Both the position numbers and the translations under genes were made by a program. Of a stretch of 9,558 bases of DNA, positions 11-7,381 are shown in pieces. Under the pieces are notes generated by a model. The model had not been told where the DNA came from and searched no databases. It was given only the letters and a program-made list of their open reading frames with translations. The DNA comes from Candidatus Lithacetigena glycinireducens (lineage in GTDB: Bacteria; Coprothermobacterota; HKB111): contig QLUP01000032.1 of the NCBI GenBank assembly GCA_018725485.1, positions 1-9,558 on the forward strand, in the 5' to 3' direction. Each line of letters opens with the position of its first letter. Position 1 is the first letter of the stretch.

Positions 11-97
11 GCCGAAGTGGCGGAATTGGCAGACGCGCTACGTTCAGGGCGTAGTGGGAAAATCCTCGTGGGGGTTCGACTCCCCCCTTCGGCACCA
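11..97 (+). tRNA. tRNA-Leu, anticodon CAG, CCA encoded
   Basis: A complete class II tRNA that decodes CUG leucine codons. The acceptor stem GCCGAAG (11-17) pairs with CTTCGGC (87-93), the discriminator base is A94, and CCA is encoded at 95-97. The anticodon stem CTACG (38-42) pairs with CGTAG (50-54) around the loop TTCAGGG, placing the anticodon CAG at 45-47. The long variable arm (about 55-69) is typical of leucine tRNAs. The T stem GGGGG (70-74) pairs with CCCCC (82-86) around TTCGACT. Its promoter lies left of the window. The murC start codon is only 10 bases past the CCA, so the two are probably co-transcribed. Confidence 0.98.
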
Positions 98-107
98 ATA
101 ATTTTAT

Positions 108-1505
108 ATGCTTAAAGACTCAATTATTCTCAAAGATGTTAAAAAAGTTCACCTTATAGGAATCAAGGGAAGAGGAGTGGTTTCTTTAGCTAACCTTCTC
201 TGTCATCTCGGTTTGGAAGTTACAGGTTCAGACACCTCTGAAACCTACCTTACCGATAAATTGCTTTCCAGGTTACCAGTAAAGGTTTTTGAAGGTTTTA
301 ACCAGGAAAATATCACTGCAGCTACAGATTTAATTGTATCCTCAGTTGTTTATTACGACTACCGCAACCATCTTCCTTTGCTAAACAACCCAGAAGTTGA
401 CCACTCCCTTAAAAACCATCTTAATATTTATGCTTACCCCCAGTTTGTAGGCAAACTGTTCCAGGAATCCCGTGGTATCGCTATTTCGGGTACTCATGGA
501 AAAACTACCACTACCGCTCTTACAGGTTTAATTTTTGAAAGAGGGGGCTTAGACCCAACCACTATATGCGGTGGAGAAATAATTGAATGGGAAGCTAATA
601 GTCGTGTTGGAAAGAGTAATTACTTCATTCTGGAAGCTGACGAATACCGCGAATCCTTTTTAAACTATGAACCAGAAATACTGGTGGTGGGGTCGTTAAG
701 CTACGACCACCCAGATTATTTTAAATCCTTCGACGATTATCTATCTGCTTATGTAAAACTTGTTAAACAGGTTAAACCAGGAGGCATTATTTTTGTCCTG
801 GGAGATAACCCCAACTCCCTTAAAGCTGTTGAGTCTTTTGATAAAAACAAGATTATCACTTATGGGGTTTCTAAAGGTATGGATTTGACCATTCCTGAAA
901 GACAGGTTAACAATGGTTTTCAACAGTTTACCGTTCAATATAACGGTAAGTATGTAGGAAAATTCTCTTTTCCCCTTCCGGGTGTAGGATACCTGCAAAA
1001 TGCTTTGGTTTCTATCGGTATAGCTCTGGAAAAAGGGGTAAACCTTAAAGCAATAGAGTCCTCGCTTAAAGATTACCAGGGTACTAAAAGACGCTTTGAG
1101 TTAAAAAGACGAACTCCCTATCTGGTAATTGACGATTATGCCGGACTTCCCAGAGAAATTGAAACCACCCTTAAAGGTGTCCGGGAGTTTTACCCAAAAA
1201 GTACCATCTGGGCAGTATTTCAACCGCATACTTATAGTAGAACCGAAGCGCTCCTGGAGGATTTAGCCAAATCCCTGAATTATGCTGACAGGGCAGTGAT
1301 TCTTAATATCTATGCTCCCCCCCGGGAAAAGGAAGGAAAAGTTCATTCTCTTGATTTGGTAAAACTGCTCGGAAAAAAAGGTATCTACCAGAAAACTAAT
1401 TCAGAAGCTGTCGATTATTTACGGAACGAAGTAAAAGATAATGATGTAATAATTACCATGGGTATAGGAGAGGTCTGGCCGGTGGCAGATGCCCTGTCAC
1501 TTTAA
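108..1505 (+). CDS. murC: MurC-type UDP-N-acetylmuramate:L-alanine ligase, divergent
   Basis: A 465-residue cytoplasmic Mur ligase. MurC adds L-alanine to UDP-MurNAc with ATP, the first peptide step of peptidoglycan precursor synthesis. Visible in order: a Gly-rich UDP-binding loop GIKGRG (18-23) with a VTGSD strand (38-42), the P-loop GTHGKTTT (128-135), EADEY (176-180), DHPDYF (200-205), QNA (297-299), KRRFE (327-331), DDY (342-344) and FQPHTYSRT (371-379). The GIKG loop and EADEY/DHPDYF style resemble the Mpl-like MurC branch I recall from Patescibacteria and other deep lineages; this is memory, not a search. Oddities: the usual HN of HNxxN is G294-Y295, the HH of DDYxHHP is G346-L347, and the Asn of the TNI motif is S196. 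The start at 108 is the only good candidate; it has no Shine-Dalgarno sequence and lies 10 bases after the tRNA. The end overlaps the convergent lipoprotein gene by 9 bp. MurC class is likely; exact substrate is less sure. Confidence 0.88.
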   Translation: MLKDSIILKDVKKVHLIGIKGRGVVSLANLLCHLGLEVTGSDTSETYLTDKLLSRLPVKVFEGFNQENITAATDLIVSSVVYYDYRNHLPLLNNPEVDHSLKNHLNIYAYPQFVGKLFQESRGIAISGTHGKTTTTALTGLIFERGGLDPTTICGGEIIEWEANSRVGKSNYFILEADEYRESFLNYEPEILVVGSLSYDHPDYFKSFDDYLSAYVKLVKQVKPGGIIFVLGDNPNSLKAVESFDKNKIITYGVSKGMDLTIPERQVNNGFQQFTVQYNGKYVGKFSFPLPGVGYLQNALVSIGIALEKGVNLKAIESSLKDYQGTKRRFELKRRTPYLVIDDYAGLPREIETTLKGVREFYPKSTIWAVFQPHTYSRTEALLEDLAKSLNYADRAVILNIYAPPREKEGKVHSLDLVKLLGKKGIYQKTNSEAVDYLRNEVKDNDVIITMGIGEVWPVADALSL

Positions 1506-1886
1506 AACCCCAGCATCCTGGACCTCTAAGAAAACATAACTATCAGAAATTTTTACGAAAACTTCTAATCTCACTGGCACACCTAAATCAGCTTCGTTAA
1601 AAGGGTTTAATCCTCCAGTATAACCACCAACATAGATGGCTCCTGTTTTATCCTTTAATAACCATAACTCTCCTAATTTTGAGGGTGGCTCTTTTATTCT
1701 TTCATCTTTCTGAAAACCCCAGAACTCCCCAATAACCACAATTCTCTGGTTTTCATACTTCTGGGGATTCTTTAAGATACTGCTTATAGACACACTGCCA
1801 TCCTGGTTTTCAGACCGACAGGCATTAAGACCTGCTAAAAGGGTTAATATCAGCAAAAATAAGGTAATTCTTTTTAAATAAAACAT
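1497..1886 (-). CDS. Small lipoprotein with probable OB-fold domain
   Basis: A 129-residue predicted lipoprotein of unknown function. A positively charged N-terminus (K5, R6) and a hydrophobic stretch (about 8-20) lead to the lipobox-like L20-N21-A22-C23, so Cys23 would be lipidated and the mature protein held on the outer face of the cytoplasmic membrane. The mature part (about 33-129) begins with a short helix segment ILKNPQKY, then alternating strands (RIVVIGEFWGF, ELWLLKDKTGAIYVGGY, VPVRLEVFVKI, YVFLEVQDAGVL). This resembles the small OB-fold domains in many secreted bacterial proteins, where 'the domain of size about 90 residues follows a lipobox'. This is a resemblance only; no catalytic residues are evident. 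A near-perfect Shine-Dalgarno sequence precedes the ATG. It is monocistronic, convergent with murC and divergent from the lipid kinase gene. Confidence 0.85.
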   Translation of the reverse strand: MFYLKRITLFLLILTLLAGLNACRSENQDGSVSISSILKNPQKYENQRIVVIGEFWGFQKDERIKEPPSKLGELWLLKDKTGAIYVGGYTGGLNPFNEADLGVPVRLEVFVKISDSYVFLEVQDAGVLK

Positions 1887-1889
1887 AAA

Positions 1890-1899
1890 AACCTCCTTT
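1890..1899 (-). promoter_or_regulatory. Strong Shine-Dalgarno site of the lipoprotein gene
   Basis: Read on the minus strand this is AAAGGAGGTT, an almost full match to the 16S anti-Shine-Dalgarno sequence. It ends three bases before the ATG of the lipoprotein gene, with the GGAGG core five bases away. It shows that the host uses classical ribosome binding, which makes the lack of such a site at 108 and 1982 notable. Confidence 0.85.
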
Positions 1900-1970
1900 A
1901 TAATCTAATAAGAATAACATATTTAATTGAATAAAGACTATTTTCCTGTTACTTATAGCTACCACTGGTT

Positions 1971-1976
1971 TATAAT
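1971..1976 (+). promoter_or_regulatory. TATAAT -10 box of the lipid kinase gene
   Basis: A consensus TATAAT on the plus strand, with its last base five bases before the ATG at 1982. Transcription usually starts about 7 bases after the -10 box, which falls at or next to the A of this ATG, so the transcript would be leaderless. No convincing -35 box is seen 16-18 bases upstream. The A+T-rich region gives TATAAT by chance fairly easily, so the call rests on its exact position plus the absence of any Shine-Dalgarno sequence. Confidence 0.5.
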
Positions 1977-1981
1977 ATAGC

Positions 1982-2779
1982 ATGGAGTTAACAGTCCTGT
2001 ACCCACACACTAAAAGCAAGTTTATGGCTAAGTATTTACTTCACCAACATAAAATCAGGTGGGTTAAAATAGGTGAAGAGATACCCGACACTCCCCTGCT
2101 GGTTACTGCGGGTGGTGATGGAACCATTAATTATGCTGTTAATAATATAAACTTAGATAAAACTAAACTTTTAGTTCTCCCTTTAGGGCGAGGTAACGCT
2201 TTTGCCAGGATTTTTAATCTTCATATAGGCCTGCTATCTGACAACGATATCCTCACCGGTGTGGAGTTGGAAGCTCCACTCATGGAAGCCAACAATCTCC
2301 TGGCTATTTTTGGCGCGGGTATAGGTAAAGGTGGAGAGGTTGTGCACTATGCTAACCCTTATTCTCAATTTGGATTTCCATCCTACCTTTTAAGCGCCAT
2401 AAAAGCTATCCAGACCAATCCCTCCCATAATTTCAGAATTAATAATATCCTTTACGATGATTTGTTAACAGCAGAGATTTCTCTCTGGGGTAAGTCTGGC
2501 TTTGGTTTGCCTTATACTAATAACCCCGCTTTTGGTCCTTACCTGACCATGATAAAAGGAAACCCTTTAATGGCCGCTTTCAAATTTTTACTGGGCCAAT
2601 TTCCGGATTGGGAAGGAGCAACAACTATAAAAGGAGATGCATTTACCCTGGAAACCGAAAAAGAGATTAATGCTCATATTGATGGAGAAAGCTTTTTAAC
2701 CCGTTATTTAGAAGTAAAATTATCTACCAAAAAGGTAAAAATTATCAAGCCTCAAATTAATTCATTTACCAATTTTTGA
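1982..2779 (+). CDS. Diacylglycerol kinase catalytic-domain (YegS/DgkB-like) lipid kinase
   Basis: A 265-residue protein of the DAGK_cat family, which phosphorylates lipid alcohols such as diacylglycerol at the membrane with ATP. Seen: the nucleotide-binding motif GGDGT (44-48) in a TAGGDGTIN context, LPLGRGNAFAR (66-76) matching the usual PxGTGNDFAR loop, a Gly-rich segment GAGIGKGGEV (111-120), and DGE at 234-236 in the C-terminal beta-sandwich, a conserved feature of DgkB/YegS enzymes. It is somewhat shorter than the usual roughly 290-310 residues. Oddities: GTGND is GRGNA, and the DGxL motif normally found before the last third is absent (region 175-195). The ATG at 1982 has no Shine-Dalgarno sequence but sits just after a TATAAT; ATG at 2024 (Met15) is a weaker alternative. 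The end overlaps murD by 28 bp tail to tail. Substrate unknown: diacylglycerol or another lipid. Confidence 0.85.
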   Translation: MELTVLYPHTKSKFMAKYLLHQHKIRWVKIGEEIPDTPLLVTAGGDGTINYAVNNINLDKTKLLVLPLGRGNAFARIFNLHIGLLSDNDILTGVELEAPLMEANNLLAIFGAGIGKGGEVVHYANPYSQFGFPSYLLSAIKAIQTNPSHNFRINNILYDDLLTAEISLWGKSGFGLPYTNNPAFGPYLTMIKGNPLMAAFKFLLGQFPDWEGATTIKGDAFTLETEKEINAHIDGESFLTRYLEVKLSTKKVKIIKPQINSFTNF

Positions 2780-4104
2780 AATATTTCTCCCCGTTCTTCA
2801 AAGTTAGAGAACTGGTCAAATGATGCGCAAGCTGGAGAAAGTAAGACAGTATCGCCCTTTTTAGATTTCTCATAAGCTAATTGAACCGCCTCTGGGAGAT
2901 TTTCCAGCATAAAATAATTACTAAATCCAGCTAAGCAGAGCGCTTCAGCAATTTTATATTTAGTACTTCCTATAAGATAGACATGTACGACATTGTTATC
3001 ATAAATTTCTTTACCCATTTCTGAAAAGTCAATGTTCTTATCACTTCCACCTAAAATAAGGTGCTTGGGTCCTGGCACAGCTTTTAAGGCGGTAATGGTA
3101 GCCTGAGGGGTGGTGGCCTTAGAGTCATTTATATAGACTACGCCTTTTAATTCCCTGACTTTCTGTAAACGGTGAGGTAATCCGCTGAAATCTTTAATGG
3201 CTTTGGCTATTTGTAGAGATTGGACACCTACAAAAGAGGTTGCTGAAACAGCTGCCAGAACATTTTGCAGGTTGTGAAGCCCCGGTAAAGGTATATCTTT
3301 AATAGAAATCACCTGGGTTTCTTCACCTTCATAACGGGTATAAATAATATCATTTTTTACGAAAGACCCCTCCAGTCCATGCTCCTTAGTGGAGAAATAA
3401 GCTTTACGGGTATTAGCTTTTTCCATTAAAATCTGCACTTTGGTATCATCTAAGTTACCAATAAGCAAATCAGAAGGACCCATATTCTTAAAAAGGCGAG
3501 AGATGGTGGTTTCAAATTCTTCAAGGGTGCTATGCCTATCCAGATGATCGGGAAAAATATTGAGAATCAGGGCAATTCGGGGACAAAACGCATCAATAGA
3601 TTCCAGTTGAAAAGAGCTGACTTCCACTACCAACCAACCAGCAAATGAAACCCTGGAAATAACTTCGGTTAAAGCTGGTCGTATATTACCTCCCAGGCCG
3701 GTTGGAATGCCTGAGTCCTTAAGTATTTTGTAAATAAGTGATGTGGTAGTGCTTTTTCCATGCGTTTCACTTACCGCAATTATGGGAGTTCTGGTATTCC
3801 GATAAGCTAACTCGAGCTCTCCCCAAATTGGTATTCCTTTTCTTTTAGCTTCTTTAATTAACGGGATTCCAGGGGAAACCCCCGGGCTTAGAATTATCAA
3901 TTCTGTTTCTTCTAACAAATCTAAGGGATGTTTTCCCAGAACCAGTTGAACCTCATTCAGGGGGGGCTCATTAAAAAAATCTTTAACGGTAAGCTTCAAA
4001 TCAGTTCCTGTTACTTTAGCTCCTTTACTCAGCAAAAGCTTAGCAGAACCTATCCCGCTATCAGCTAAACCCACAATCAGACATTTTTTTCCTTCATATT
4101 CCAT
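2752..4104 (-). CDS. murD: MurD-type UDP-MurNAc-L-alanine:D-glutamate ligase with altered P-loop
   Basis: A 450-residue cytoplasmic Mur ligase, the usual MurD length. MurD adds D-glutamate to UDP-MurNAc-L-Ala with ATP. Seen: a Rossmann-like N-terminal domain with VGLADSG (11-17) and LSPGVSPGIP (72-81), GELELAY (95-101), the ATP region around GKSTTT (116-121), GGNI (138-141), EVSSFQLE (161-168), PDHLDRH (185-191), HNLQN (277-281), GLPHR (308-312), NDSKAT (326-331), GGSDK (352-356) and the C-terminal SPACASFDQF (423-432), diagnostic of MurD. Oddities: the canonical TGTNGK P-loop reads SETHGK (112-117), so the first Gly is E113 and the Asn is H115. The normally carbamylated Lys after the DHLD motif aligns with I201. 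GNIG is GNIR. It has a GAAGGTG Shine-Dalgarno sequence inside the end of murF, which it overlaps by 11 bp. Last gene of a four-gene operon. Confidence 0.92.
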   Translation of the reverse strand: MEYEGKKCLIVGLADSGIGSAKLLLSKGAKVTGTDLKLTVKDFFNEPPLNEVQLVLGKHPLDLLEETELIILSPGVSPGIPLIKEAKRKGIPIWGELELAYRNTRTPIIAVSETHGKSTTTSLIYKILKDSGIPTGLGGNIRPALTEVISRVSFAGWLVVEVSSFQLESIDAFCPRIALILNIFPDHLDRHSTLEEFETTISRLFKNMGPSDLLIGNLDDTKVQILMEKANTRKAYFSTKEHGLEGSFVKNDIIYTRYEGEETQVISIKDIPLPGLHNLQNVLAAVSATSFVGVQSLQIAKAIKDFSGLPHRLQKVRELKGVVYINDSKATTPQATITALKAVPGPKHLILGGSDKNIDFSEMGKEIYDNNVVHVYLIGSTKYKIAEALCLAGFSNYFMLENLPEAVQLAYEKSKKGDTVLLSPACASFDQFSNFEERGEIFQKLVNELI

Positions 4105-5437
4105 TATTTAGCACCTTCAATATCTCTTCCATATTAACCCCTCGAGAACCCTTGATAAGCACCAGGTCATCTGGCTTAAGGTTCTCTTTTAACCACCTAC
4201 CTGCCATTTTGGAGTCATTAAAATGGTTGCCCGGGGTACCTTTTGAACGAAATAACCTGGCGTTTTCTCCAACCGTGATAAGTACCTGGGGTGCTAAACC
4301 CTCAATAATTGGAGCAAATTTCCTGTGCTCCTCTTCTGCCAGTAACCCCAGTTCTCGCATCTCTCCCAGTATTAAAATCTTTCTTTTGCCTTCAAGATTA
4401 CTGAACAATTCAAGCGAAGCTTTTAAAGACAGGGAGTTAGAATTATAATAATCTACCAATAAGGTAGCTCCGAAACACTGTTTCTTTTCCATCCTGCCCC
4501 AGATTGGCTTAAAATTGGTTAAAGCTTTAGTTCCTTCCAGAGGAGGAATACCCATAAGGAAACCAATTGCTAAAGCACCTAAAGAGTTCATTGCCATATG
4601 CTTCCCCATTACATCTTTCATAAAATAATTGACCCCTCCTTCCGGGGTTGAGGCTATTATTTCCGTTCCTTCCAGGCTGGAATTAATTTTTTTCATCCTG
4701 AAATCCCGCCCCTTATAACCATAGGTAATAATCTTCTTTAAGCAACTACTACCCAACGACATAACCAGTTTATCATCAGCATTTAATACCACCCAGCCAG
4801 TTTCGGAAATTGATTTCAGCAAAACCCCCCCCTCTTCTTCTTTGACCCCTTCTAAAGAGCCAAAATATTCGGTATGAGAGGGACCAAGGGCAGTAATTAT
4901 TGCCGCTGATGGTTTTATAATGTCAACCAAAAGATTCAAATCACCTATTTTTTGAGCTCCATACTCTACCACTCTAACCTGTGGATTTTCTTCATCATTA
5001 AGTAGGTATAGAGGTATACCTATCTCGGTATTCATATTACCCGGTGTTGCGCTTACCTGGTATTTGCAGGACAATACTTCTCTTATCATTTCTTTGGTGG
5101 TAGTTTTACCCACACTTCCACCTACTCCAATAGTAAAGGTTGGGTTTTTTTGAGAAACCCATTTACCCAGGATAATTAAAGCTGAGAGCGTATTCTCTAC
5201 GATTATTTCCAAGGGGAAAACGCTCATTTTTTCTTTCAGCAAGGCTCCTTTAGCACCCCTCTCCTGAGCATCAGCACAAAAGAGATGCCCATCGGTATTC
5301 TCACCTTTTAAAGCAACAAAAAAAGACCCCTCTCGGGCCTCCCTTGAATCAGAAACATAATGGGAAAAACTGATACCTTCGTCCCCTATGAGTTTCCCTG
5401 AAACTATCTGGTTTAATAAACCTGCTTCAATTAACAT
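4094..5437 (-). CDS. murF: MurF-type UDP-MurNAc-tripeptide:D-alanyl-D-alanine ligase, divergent active site
   Basis: A 447-residue cytoplasmic ligase of normal MurF length. MurF adds D-Ala-D-Ala to UDP-MurNAc-tripeptide with ATP, completing the pentapeptide. Seen: N-terminal substrate domain with SDSREAREGSFFVAL (29-43) and GHLF (50-53), the P-loop GSVGKTTTK (107-115), GNMNTEIGIPL (133-143), EYGA (158-161), GPSH (185-188), GKH..N (278-284), GRMEK (314-318), DYYNSNS (329-335), LGEMRELG (357-364) and KGSRGVNMEEIL (429-440). Oddities: the carbamylated Lys of the usual AKAE stretch aligns with E202 (K199 is nearby), the following Glu with G204, the Asn of TNxG with A183, the first Asn of HNxxN with M281, and NANP with NSNS. 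A run of eight G (plus-strand C, about 4825-4832) encodes part of this region, but the frame continues correctly. Start overlaps the methyltransferase by 11 bp; Shine-Dalgarno is weak. Confidence 0.92.
   Translation of the reverse strand: MLIEAGLLNQIVSGKLIGDEGISFSHYVSDSREAREGSFFVALKGENTDGHLFCADAQERGAKGALLKEKMSVFPLEIIVENTLSALIILGKWVSQKNPTFTIGVGGSVGKTTTKEMIREVLSCKYQVSATPGNMNTEIGIPLYLLNDEENPQVRVVEYGAQKIGDLNLLVDIIKPSAAIITALGPSHTEYFGSLEGVKEEEGGVLLKSISETGWVVLNADDKLVMSLGSSCLKKIITYGYKGRDFRMKKINSSLEGTEIIASTPEGGVNYFMKDVMGKHMAMNSLGALAIGFLMGIPPLEGTKALTNFKPIWGRMEKKQCFGATLLVDYYNSNSLSLKASLELFSNLEGKRKILILGEMRELGLLAEEEHRKFAPIIEGLAPQVLITVGENARLFRSKGTPGNHFNDSKMAGRWLKENLKPDDLVLIKGSRGVNMEEILKVLNNGI
4112..4118 (-). 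promoter_or_regulatory. Shine-Dalgarno site of murD inside murF
   Basis: Read on the minus strand this is GAAGGTG, seven bases before the murD ATG and within the last codons of murF. It supports the chosen murD start and independent or coupled reinitiation at the 11-bp overlap. Confidence 0.7.
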
Positions 5438-6170
5438 TTTTCGCCAGTATCAACATCCGGGTTGATTCAAGATTCAAGGCTGTCCTGTTATAGTCCCCAA
5501 ATACCTTCTCCACCAAAAAACCTGTTTCTTCCAATATTCGTTTCATCTCGGCAAAGGAATAAAGTCTTAATTCCCTTTTAACTTCTTTCTTCTCTTCCTT
5601 ACGAAAGTAAATTCTTCGAGTATGTTGAATACCAGTGTGAATATCAAAGCGGTGTCTTTCCAATAGGGTAAAGGCAGGATATTCCCGAATTTCATCTGTT
5701 TTGAAGTATCTGATTATATGGTCGCGGTTCTCCAGGTCAAGAAATAAGTATCCTCCATTTCTTAACACCCGGTTAATTTCTAACAGAGTTTTGGCATCAT
5801 CTTCTTCGGTAAAATACCCAAAAGAGGTGAAAAATAAGGTTACTAAATCAAAAATATTGTCCTGTAAAGGAAGTTTCCTCATGTCCCCCTGAATCAAATC
5901 CATATTTCTACCTTTGCTATTACTTTTTTCCCGGGCTTTTAACAGGTAATTGCGATTAAAATCAAGCCCTACCACTCTATAAGAATGCTGGGAAAATACT
6001 TCCAAGTGTCTTCCATATCCACAACCAAGGTCAAGAATCAAACTATCTCTGGTAACCCCAGTTTCTGTAAGAACAAAGTTTACCTGCTGAATATTTCTTT
6101 GTGGATCGTCTTTAATAAGAAGTGTCCGGAGGTAATCTTGGTCAAAATATGAACCAGGCCAATCTTCCAA
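5427..6170 (-). CDS. Class I SAM-dependent methyltransferase
   Basis: A 247-residue soluble methyltransferase of unknown substrate. The Rossmann-type SAM-binding motif I is LDLGCGYG (46-53), with the acidic residue after strand beta-2 at D70 in VVGLDFN, QGDMRKLP (94-101), and FDLVTLFFTSFGYF (107-120). The C-terminal part has YSFAEMKRILEETGF (204-218) followed by NxTxxxxES (228-236), typical of small-molecule class I methyltransferases of the Methyltransf_11/25 type. The start is a TTG two bases after the stop of the preceding gene; no earlier in-frame ATG, GTG or TTG is available because an in-frame TGA lies three codons upstream, and no good Shine-Dalgarno sequence is seen, so translational coupling is likely. 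It overlaps murF by 11 bp. By position it may modify a cell-envelope precursor, but nothing in the sequence proves it. Confidence 0.9.
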   Translation of the reverse strand: MEDWPGSYFDQDYLRTLLIKDDPQRNIQQVNFVLTETGVTRDSLILDLGCGYGRHLEVFSQHSYRVVGLDFNRNYLLKAREKSNSKGRNMDLIQGDMRKLPLQDNIFDLVTLFFTSFGYFTEEDDAKTLLEINRVLRNGGYLFLDLENRDHIIRYFKTDEIREYPAFTLLERHRFDIHTGIQHTRRIYFRKEEKKEVKRELRLYSFAEMKRILEETGFLVEKVFGDYNRTALNLESTRMLILAKNVN

Positions 6171-6172
6171 CT

Positions 6173-7381
6173 TTATTCAAAAGATTTTATGGATAATCTT
6201 AAAGCTTTCCCCCTGGTAGTACCCACCCCCAGAAGGTCACCCCATTGAAAGAGAGAAAGAACAGGAATAGTTTTCAAAGAATATGTGCCTATACTCTCCA
6301 CCCGGCTATCCTGGGTAATCTGAAAAGCTTTCAGATTCCAGATGAAGTTGCCAGTTTCTTTATCTTTTTCTCCTCGGGTTGAGATAACAATTTCACCATT
6401 TCTCATAACAGCTACGGTTTCGCCTCGCAAAACATTGGTGGTAGTTTGATAACTCCATACCGTTTCCATCTTTTCCCCGCTCTTAATAAGGTACAGACTA
6501 AGAATATCCTTATGATCTGGGGTTGAATGGTAAGCAGAAACGAGAAAATGATCAGGTCGGGGGTGTTTATAAAAACTAAGGAAAATACCTTTTATTTCCA
6601 GCGACTGGTTATCGTTTCGGTTGAGAATAACCCTGTTTTCAGCAGGAACAGTAACAGCAAGAGTATGTTTTGAATCAAGCATAAGAAAGTCAATAGCATT
6701 TTTTACTTTAAAGACAGTTTTGTTATCCAGAGTGTAAACCCCGGTGGAAGAAAGGTAGTAAATATTGCCATCACTATGTTTATACAACTTAAACGGTGTT
6801 TCAGCGTATTTCAAAGTTTCTAAGATTTTAGCCTGAGATGAACTGATTTTATGAATAACCCCGCTTTTATCGGTTAGTTCAATAGAAGCGAGTAGAACAT
6901 CATCATCCTGAAAAACCACTGATTTTGGATTCCCATCCATAAACTCATAATAAAGAGGTTCTCCTTCCCTGGAAATGATACCGATACTTTTATCTTCTCC
7001 AGCAAAAGCCATCTTATCGCTGGTTACGGTCATAGAAACCAATTTAGGGGCTATAAGTGACGATAAACCCCCAGACTTATCAATATGATAAAAACGTCTA
7101 GCCATTTGCGAATAAAGATAACTAACTTCGCCACTTGGAAGGGATATCCCTGCATCCACCCAGACATCAAAGTAAGTAACTTGATTATCCTTCCCTTGAG
7201 ATTCAATTTTAGGTATTTCTATGACCAGTTCATCTGTTATAGAAGCCGTATTATTCTGACCATTTTTATCTACAGGTAAAAATGGTAAGCCACTAACTCT
7301 CGCAAAGTAATATATTCCTCCTGCCAAAGATATAATTAACACCGATAAACAAGCGATAATAAAAATATATTTTTTATTCAA
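6173..7381 (-). CDS. Membrane-anchored beta-rich protein, function unknown
   Basis: A 402-residue protein I do not recognise. A short basic N-terminus (K3, K4) and one hydrophobic segment (about 5-26) predict a single N-terminal membrane anchor with the rest outside the cytoplasm; there is no lipobox Cys. A polar linker (about 36-60) leads into about 340 residues of repeated short strands and turns (for example MAFAGEDKSIGIISREG, IYYLSSTGVYTLDNK, EIVISTRGE, LLGVGTTRGKALRL). This resembles a beta-propeller such as a PQQ/WD40-like fold, inferred from pattern only. No catalytic motif or metal site stands out. The start is TTG, chosen because AAGGTGGTG lies four bases upstream and an extended -10 box lies further up. 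First gene of the operon with the methyltransferase, murF and murD, suggesting an envelope role. Confidence 0.82.
   Translation of the reverse strand: MNKKYIFIIACLSVLIISLAGGIYYFARVSGLPFLPVDKNGQNNTASITDELVIEIPKIESQGKDNQVTYFDVWVDAGISLPSGEVSYLYSQMARRFYHIDKSGGLSSLIAPKLVSMTVTSDKMAFAGEDKSIGIISREGEPLYYEFMDGNPKSVVFQDDDVLLASIELTDKSGVIHKISSSQAKILETLKYAETPFKLYKHSDGNIYYLSSTGVYTLDNKTVFKVKNAIDFLMLDSKHTLAVTVPAENRVILNRNDNQSLEIKGIFLSFYKHPRPDHFLVSAYHSTPDHKDILSLYLIKSGEKMETVWSYQTTTNVLRGETVAVMRNGEIVISTRGEKDKETGNFIWNLKAFQITQDSRVESIGTYSLKTIPVLSLFQWGDLLGVGTTRGKALRLSIKSFE

Follow-up and report, generated by a model that had tools for sequence, protein, structure and literature searches.

Mur ligase genes on the contig and in the whole genome

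We asked whether MurC, MurD and MurF, three Mur ligases encoded outside the division and cell wall (dcw) gene cluster on a short contig of Candidatus Lithacetigena glycinireducens, form a second set beside a housekeeping one or are the only set that the organism has. Mur ligases are antibacterial targets. The window, i.e. the whole stretch of DNA analysed here (~9.6 kb), is the complete contig C131 of a draft genome (G000; 1.24 Mb in 204 contigs, 83% complete, contamination 0.7%), and it was compared with the genome of one congener (G001; 93% complete) and with seven further genomes of the same phylum, Coprothermobacterota. The gene order is tRNA-Leu(CAG), murC (+), a putative lipoprotein gene (-), a YegS-like kinase gene (+), a leftward run of genes for a 402-amino acid protein, a methyltransferase, MurF and MurD, and topB (+). 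As the preliminary description of this DNA had it, the three ligase genes are open and full length, and each product scores above the curated cut-off of its own family (AlphaFold confidence is given as predicted local distance difference test, pLDDT, and predicted template modelling score, pTM; UDP-MurNAc is UDP-N-acetylmuramic acid):

108..1505, + strand: murC, sole copy in the genome; TIGR01082 388.6 bits versus a cut-off of 335.1; AlphaFold model with pLDDT 92 and pTM 0.91
2752..4104, - strand: murD, UDP-MurNAc-L-Ala--D-Glu ligase, 450 amino acids, sole copy in the genome; TIGR01087 411.1 versus 212 bits
4094..5437, - strand: murF, D-Ala-D-Ala-adding ligase, 447 amino acids, sole copy in the genome; TIGR01143 355 versus 288.6 bits

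In whole-genome searches, G000 and G001 each yielded four Mur_ligase_M proteins and no more, one each of MurC, MurD, MurE and MurF; no second MurC, MurD or MurF was found in either genome, and outside the window only MurE was detected. The murE gene of G000 lies on contig C119 (L035; 9407-10894) in a dcw cluster of the order ftsI-murE-mraY-ftsW-murG-murB-ftsQ-two DUF881-type genes-ftsZ, where the names other than murE are those that we take to apply from reading the sequences with knowledge of the families, not from a profile search. This cluster lacks exactly murF, murD and murC and is otherwise complete. Thus, murE, mraY, ftsW, murG and ftsQ, described earlier as absent, are missing from the window but not from the genome, where all of them are on C119. 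The congener shows the same gap in its own dcw cluster (contig C113; mraZ-rsmH-ftsL-like-ftsI-murE-mraY-ftsW-murG-murB-ftsQ) and carries methyltransferase-murF-murD and the kinase gene on a separate contig, where they are ordered as in the window and lie beside topB, and its murC follows the same tRNA-Leu gene and adjoins the same lipoprotein gene. Because there are no other copies, the dcw cluster is short of precisely these three genes, and the congener has the same split and nearly all of the substitutions, we conclude that MurC, MurD and MurF very probably represent the sole housekeeping set of this uncultured genus, partly relocated, and as judged from sequence would make an ordinary peptidoglycan precursor.

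The preliminary description had proposed instead that the three genes might be a second, paralogous Mur set which, together with the methyltransferase and the lipid kinase, builds a non-standard nucleotide-peptide. Their position outside the dcw cluster, the overlap of the methyltransferase gene with murF and the altered active sites of MurC and MurD are what such a set might look like. However, the search for further murC, murD, murE and murF genes found only the four ligases in both genomes, the dcw cluster is short of exactly the three in question, all three score as members of their own families, and the MurE encoded in the dcw cluster drifts likewise, which makes a second set extremely unlikely. 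The idea of a separate system fails on two counts, namely that the genome has no other Mur ligases and that the housekeeping set of the relative carries the same substitutions. Further, although the genome is a draft metagenome-assembled genome (MAG) and the window is an entire contig of only 9.6 kb, errors of sequencing or assembly, or a contaminated bin, have a virtually negligible probability, as the independent genome of the congener agrees in gene content, gene order and residues on different contigs at 81-87% identity and the contamination is low. Sequencing error as the source of the substitutions is refuted by the congener.

The remainder of the housekeeping pathway is in place. MurA is encoded by a single gene in each of G000 and G001, and the pathway is complete for MurA, MurB, MurC to MurF, MraY, MurG, FtsW and FtsI. 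A D-Ala-D-Ala ligase (Ddl) was seen in G001 only; no comparable Ddl was found in G000, where the gene may fall in the missing part of the genome. The other suggestion made at the outset, that this is the only set of a lineage with a diverged wall pathway, stands in that the set is the only one and is diverged, but nothing shows an unusual wall, since none of MurA, MurB, MraY, MurG, FtsW and FtsI is missing, and no new wall polymer is suggested.

Substituted residues in MurC, MurD and MurF

Conservation was counted over 55-106 aligned homologues per protein, all from outside the genus; they came from relatives and from a diverse sample of 80 MurD loci with the genes around them; the contig scan that yielded the 80 MurDs contained no near relative of the genus. 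The search patterns of the MurD survey include N182, H187 and D327-S328-K329, so conservation in these columns is overestimated; G113 and K201 are free of this bias. Every residue singled out in the preliminary description is present. That they replace near-invariant residues holds for Y295, G346 and L347 of MurC and for E113 and I201 of MurD, less so for S196 and G294 of MurC, and not for MurF. The codons are as follows:

693..695, + strand: MurC S196, at the position of an adenine-contacting Asn (PaMpl Asn205; mapped via PMC3060825)
987..992, + strand: MurC G294-Y295, in place of the His-Asn of GxHNxxN, the His being an adenine contact
1143..1148, + strand: MurC G346-L347, where DDY(A/G)HHP has its two His, of which the first contacts the triphosphate
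3760..3768, - strand: MurD E113-T114-H115, in the P-loop SETHGKS (TGTNGKS/T in others)
3502..3504, - strand: MurD I201, matching Lys198 of the E. coli enzyme, which is carbamoylated (PMC4816537)
4832..4834, - strand: MurF E202, at the carbamoylated-Lys position; not unique, with Asn in phylum mates and Glu or Asp in other phyla

In MurC, position 347 is His in 55 of 55 homologues, position 295 is Asn in 54 of 55 and position 346 is His in 53 of 55, so that L347, Y295 and G346 are exceptional; G294 and S196 are less so (His and Asn, respectively, each in 47 of 55). Mapping onto the published Mpl/MurC structure (PMC3060825) shows that, of three adenine contacts, two are lost (S196 and G294), as is one triphosphate contact (G346). 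The motifs read GVGYLQN instead of GxHNxxN and DDYAGLP instead of DDY(A/G)HHP, with N298 and D343 kept; both motifs are ancillary, and membership in the MurC family rests on profile score and orthology. The protein is a full-length, three-domain ligase that matches the solved enzymes (6cau, 1gqq/1p3d) over its full length. It retains the P-loop GTHGKT (G131, K132), Glu176 and His201 of the Mg site, the compensating Glu179, and Asn298, Arg329 and Asp343. It differs from the family in the HN to GY, HH to GL and N196S changes and in having only 24-34% identity to MurC matches outside the genus. Addition of L-Ala to UDP-MurNAc is the activity predicted for it from sequence.

In MurD, G113 and K201 are kept in 106 of 106 homologues, and both species of the genus have E113 and I201; position 115, His here, is Asn in 102 of 106. 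The carbamoylated Lys that marks canonical MurD (E. coli K198) is thus Ile in both species, which lowers the claim of canonical MurD chemistry but not that of orthology. TIGR01087 is the family in which this protein scores highest, it matches solved MurDs (3lk7, 4uag, 7ti7) over its full length, and it keeps the P-loop Gly-Lys, E161, N182, H187, H277/N281 and DSK; what sets it apart from the family is Glu for the P-loop Gly113, His for Asn115 and Ile201 for the carbamoylated Lys. Its AlphaFold model (pLDDT 95, pTM 0.91) aligns with solved MurD 7ti7 in VIA-align with a Z of 43.6 and a root mean square deviation of 2.7 Å over 427 residues. Addition of D-Glu is its predicted activity.

MurF is a different case. 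Position 202 is Lys in 43 of 55 homologues and Asn, Glu or Asp in the other 12, position 281 is highly variable, and position 183 is not constant either, with Thr in the congener. Because 12 of 55 other MurFs have no Lys there, the carbamoylated Lys at the position of E202 is not family-defining for MurF. The protein matches solved MurFs (1gg4, 4cvk, 3zl8) over its full length, and its difference from the family, Glu202, is a state that is also found elsewhere. None of the sampled MurFs of Coprothermobacterota has the carbamoylated Lys; the residue is Asn in the phylum mates (L040, L033, L041, L039, L096, L099 and L101) and Glu in this genus. Some Nitrospirota, a Bacteroidota MAG and others likewise have Glu or Asp at this position.

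To compare the four ligases over their lengths, we counted broken columns among those conserved in at least 95% of the homologues. MurC breaks 8 of 38 such columns (a number reached by 1 of 54 others) and MurD 6 of 40 (4 of 106 others), with 3 of 48 for MurE (7 of 63 others) and 0 of 19 for MurF. MurE, encoded in the dcw cluster, has N200S at the adenine-site Asn, which is Asn in 64 of 64 others. Because MurE has lost this residue without leaving the dcw cluster, the carbamoylated Lys of MurF is absent across the sampled genomes of the phylum, and the stem branches of the four ligases are similar (see below), the residue drift is a property of the lineage that is not tied to the relocated genes. 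MurE also has DNPK, i.e. Lys for the Arg of the DNPR substrate motif, as have 4 of 64 others.

Selection and proposed function

With the sole exception of A183T in MurF, the substitutions are the same in the congener, although S196, L347 and E113 are each encoded there by a synonymous codon. The ratio of nonsynonymous to synonymous substitution rates (dN/dS) between G000 and G001 is 0.144 for murC, 0.132 for murD and 0.148 for murF, within the range of 0.09-0.19 obtained for murE, mraY, murG, murB and ftsQ. These low values, the retention of odd residues through silent codon changes, the confident models of MurC and MurD and the match of MurD to a solved MurD lead us to infer that MurC, MurD and MurF are working enzymes. 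That intact frames speak against decay, as first proposed, is thus borne out by open frames in two species, dN/dS and fold confidence. Loss of residues that are reported as essential could instead mean that MurC or MurD is decaying or catalytically lost, with the step supplied by another enzyme or the wall reduced. But both frames are open in two species, their dN/dS of 0.13-0.14 is on par with that of other wall genes, the folds are of high confidence, the downstream pathway is complete, and the genome has no alternative ligase; such loss is very unlikely, and decay was rejected on dN/dS and fold.

In the proposed pathway, with activities assigned by orthology, UDP-MurNAc would receive L-Ala from MurC, then D-Glu from MurD, the third residue from MurE and finally D-Ala-D-Ala from MurF, and the product would be ordinary UDP-MurNAc-pentapeptide. 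The drift in MurC and MurD falls around the ATP and second Mg sites, and both retain the Gly-Lys of the P-loop, the Glu and His that bind metal and the Asp of the C-domain. They most likely work by the usual acyl-phosphate chemistry of these ligases, with second-shell changes that are tolerated or presumably compensated. Some points weigh against this picture. First, PMC3060825 and PMC4816537 describe the carbamoylated Lys of MurD as essential, from chemical-rescue work on the E. coli enzymes (Dementin 2001, cited there), and it is Ile here. Second, the Glu that compensates for a missing carbamoylated Lys in MurC is absent at the matching MurD site, which is Ser164. Third, with the genomes 83% and 93% complete, an unassembled second set keeps a small probability.

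The only obvious new carboxylate of this MurD is E113 in the P-loop. This raises the possibility, which we consider doubtful, that MurD of the genus ligates D-Glu independently of CO2, with Glu113 giving the carboxylate, within a coordinated remodelling of the nucleotide and Mg sites of all four Mur ligases. More broadly, the four ligases of a sole set could have adapted jointly to another nucleotide or to CO2-free metal binding, with E113 of MurD or E202 of MurF as the carboxylate. The adenine Asn is lost in three of the four ligases (MurC, MurE and MurF), uniquely so in MurE; the carbamoylated-Lys position of MurF is Asn or Glu in every sampled genome of the phylum; and E113 is a new acidic P-loop residue in the MurD of both species, under purifying selection. 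However, MurD retains N182, H277 and N281 of the adenine site, several unrelated bacteria have MurF without the Asn, and fast-evolving lineages also lose such residues, and joint adaptation is thus unlikely. Overall, we conclude that this is an ordinary system with relocated genes and strongly drifted MurC and MurD, and not a new pathway. With Ile for Lys and Glu in place of the P-loop Gly, this sole-copy MurD under purifying selection is an exception provided by nature and open to direct assay, and MurC and MurD together offer a useful natural experiment on the residues that these enzymes require; if MurD is active, a residue can be conserved across phyla and still not be strictly required. 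No literature on Mur ligases of Coprothermobacterota was found among the literature searched.

Relocation within Coprothermobacterota

Delocalisation of dcw genes has been described as common (PMC8871954). Among the phylum mates, family f3 has murE-murF-mraY-murD, murG-murB and murC together, and family f2, to which Coprothermobacter proteolyticus belongs, has murF-mraY-murD inside its dcw cluster. Because f2 and f3 keep murF and murD beside dcw genes, the exit of these two genes from the cluster is derived in this genus. The genus shares with both families the core of rsmH, mraY and murG, and its cluster, like that of f2, starts with mraZ and ends in DUF881-DUF881-ftsZ; it differs in lacking murF, murD and murC there, whereas f2 and f3 keep murF and murD and f3 also murC. 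The proposed sequence of events is that the three genes left an ancestral dcw cluster, murC coming to lie behind a tRNA-Leu gene and murF-murD behind a methyltransferase gene.

In trees of the four ligases, the stem branches of the genus are similar and long (MurC 2.28, MurD 1.72, MurE 1.66 and MurF 1.47). Grouping with phylum mates is weak for MurF and is not seen for MurD; MurC falls together with L024, itself a long branch. Given long stems and poor placement, we claim neither vertical descent nor transfer.

Neighbouring genes

The other features of the window are:

11..97, + strand: tRNA-Leu, anticodon CAG (ARAGORN, Rfam RF00005); ends 10 bp before murC, with the same layout in G001
1497..1886, - strand: putative lipoprotein, 129 amino acids, without a Pfam or NCBIfam match; adjoins murC in G001 too
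1982..2779, + strand: YegS/DAGK-like lipid kinase, 265 amino acids; PF00781 36.7 bits, best NCBIfam matches below cut-off; kept in G001
5427..6170, - strand: class I S-adenosylmethionine-dependent methyltransferase; PF13649 82 bits; kept in G001
6173..7381, - strand: 402-amino acid protein without a known family, upstream in the same gene run as the methyltransferase

The topB gene (+) closes the window and is truncated by the contig end. The murF and murD genes overlap by 11 bp, and as the methyltransferase gene also overlaps murF by 11 bp, methyltransferase-murF-murD is probably a single transcript. Of the two partners proposed earlier, the methyltransferase is thus probably co-transcribed with the ligases, but the kinase gene is convergent with murD, with overlapping stop regions in both species, and is linked to it by proximity only. 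A role for either in wall synthesis was rejected: both belong to generic families, the kinase is not co-transcribed, and nothing beyond proximity connects them to the wall, although both are kept in place in the congener. Since the tRNA-Leu(CAG) gene lies 10 bp 5' of murC in both species, the tRNA promoter may also drive murC. The 402-amino acid protein, which is apparently membrane-anchored and encoded upstream of the methyltransferase in both species, is the fastest evolving among the genes compared between G000 and G001 (75% identity, dN/dS 0.26).

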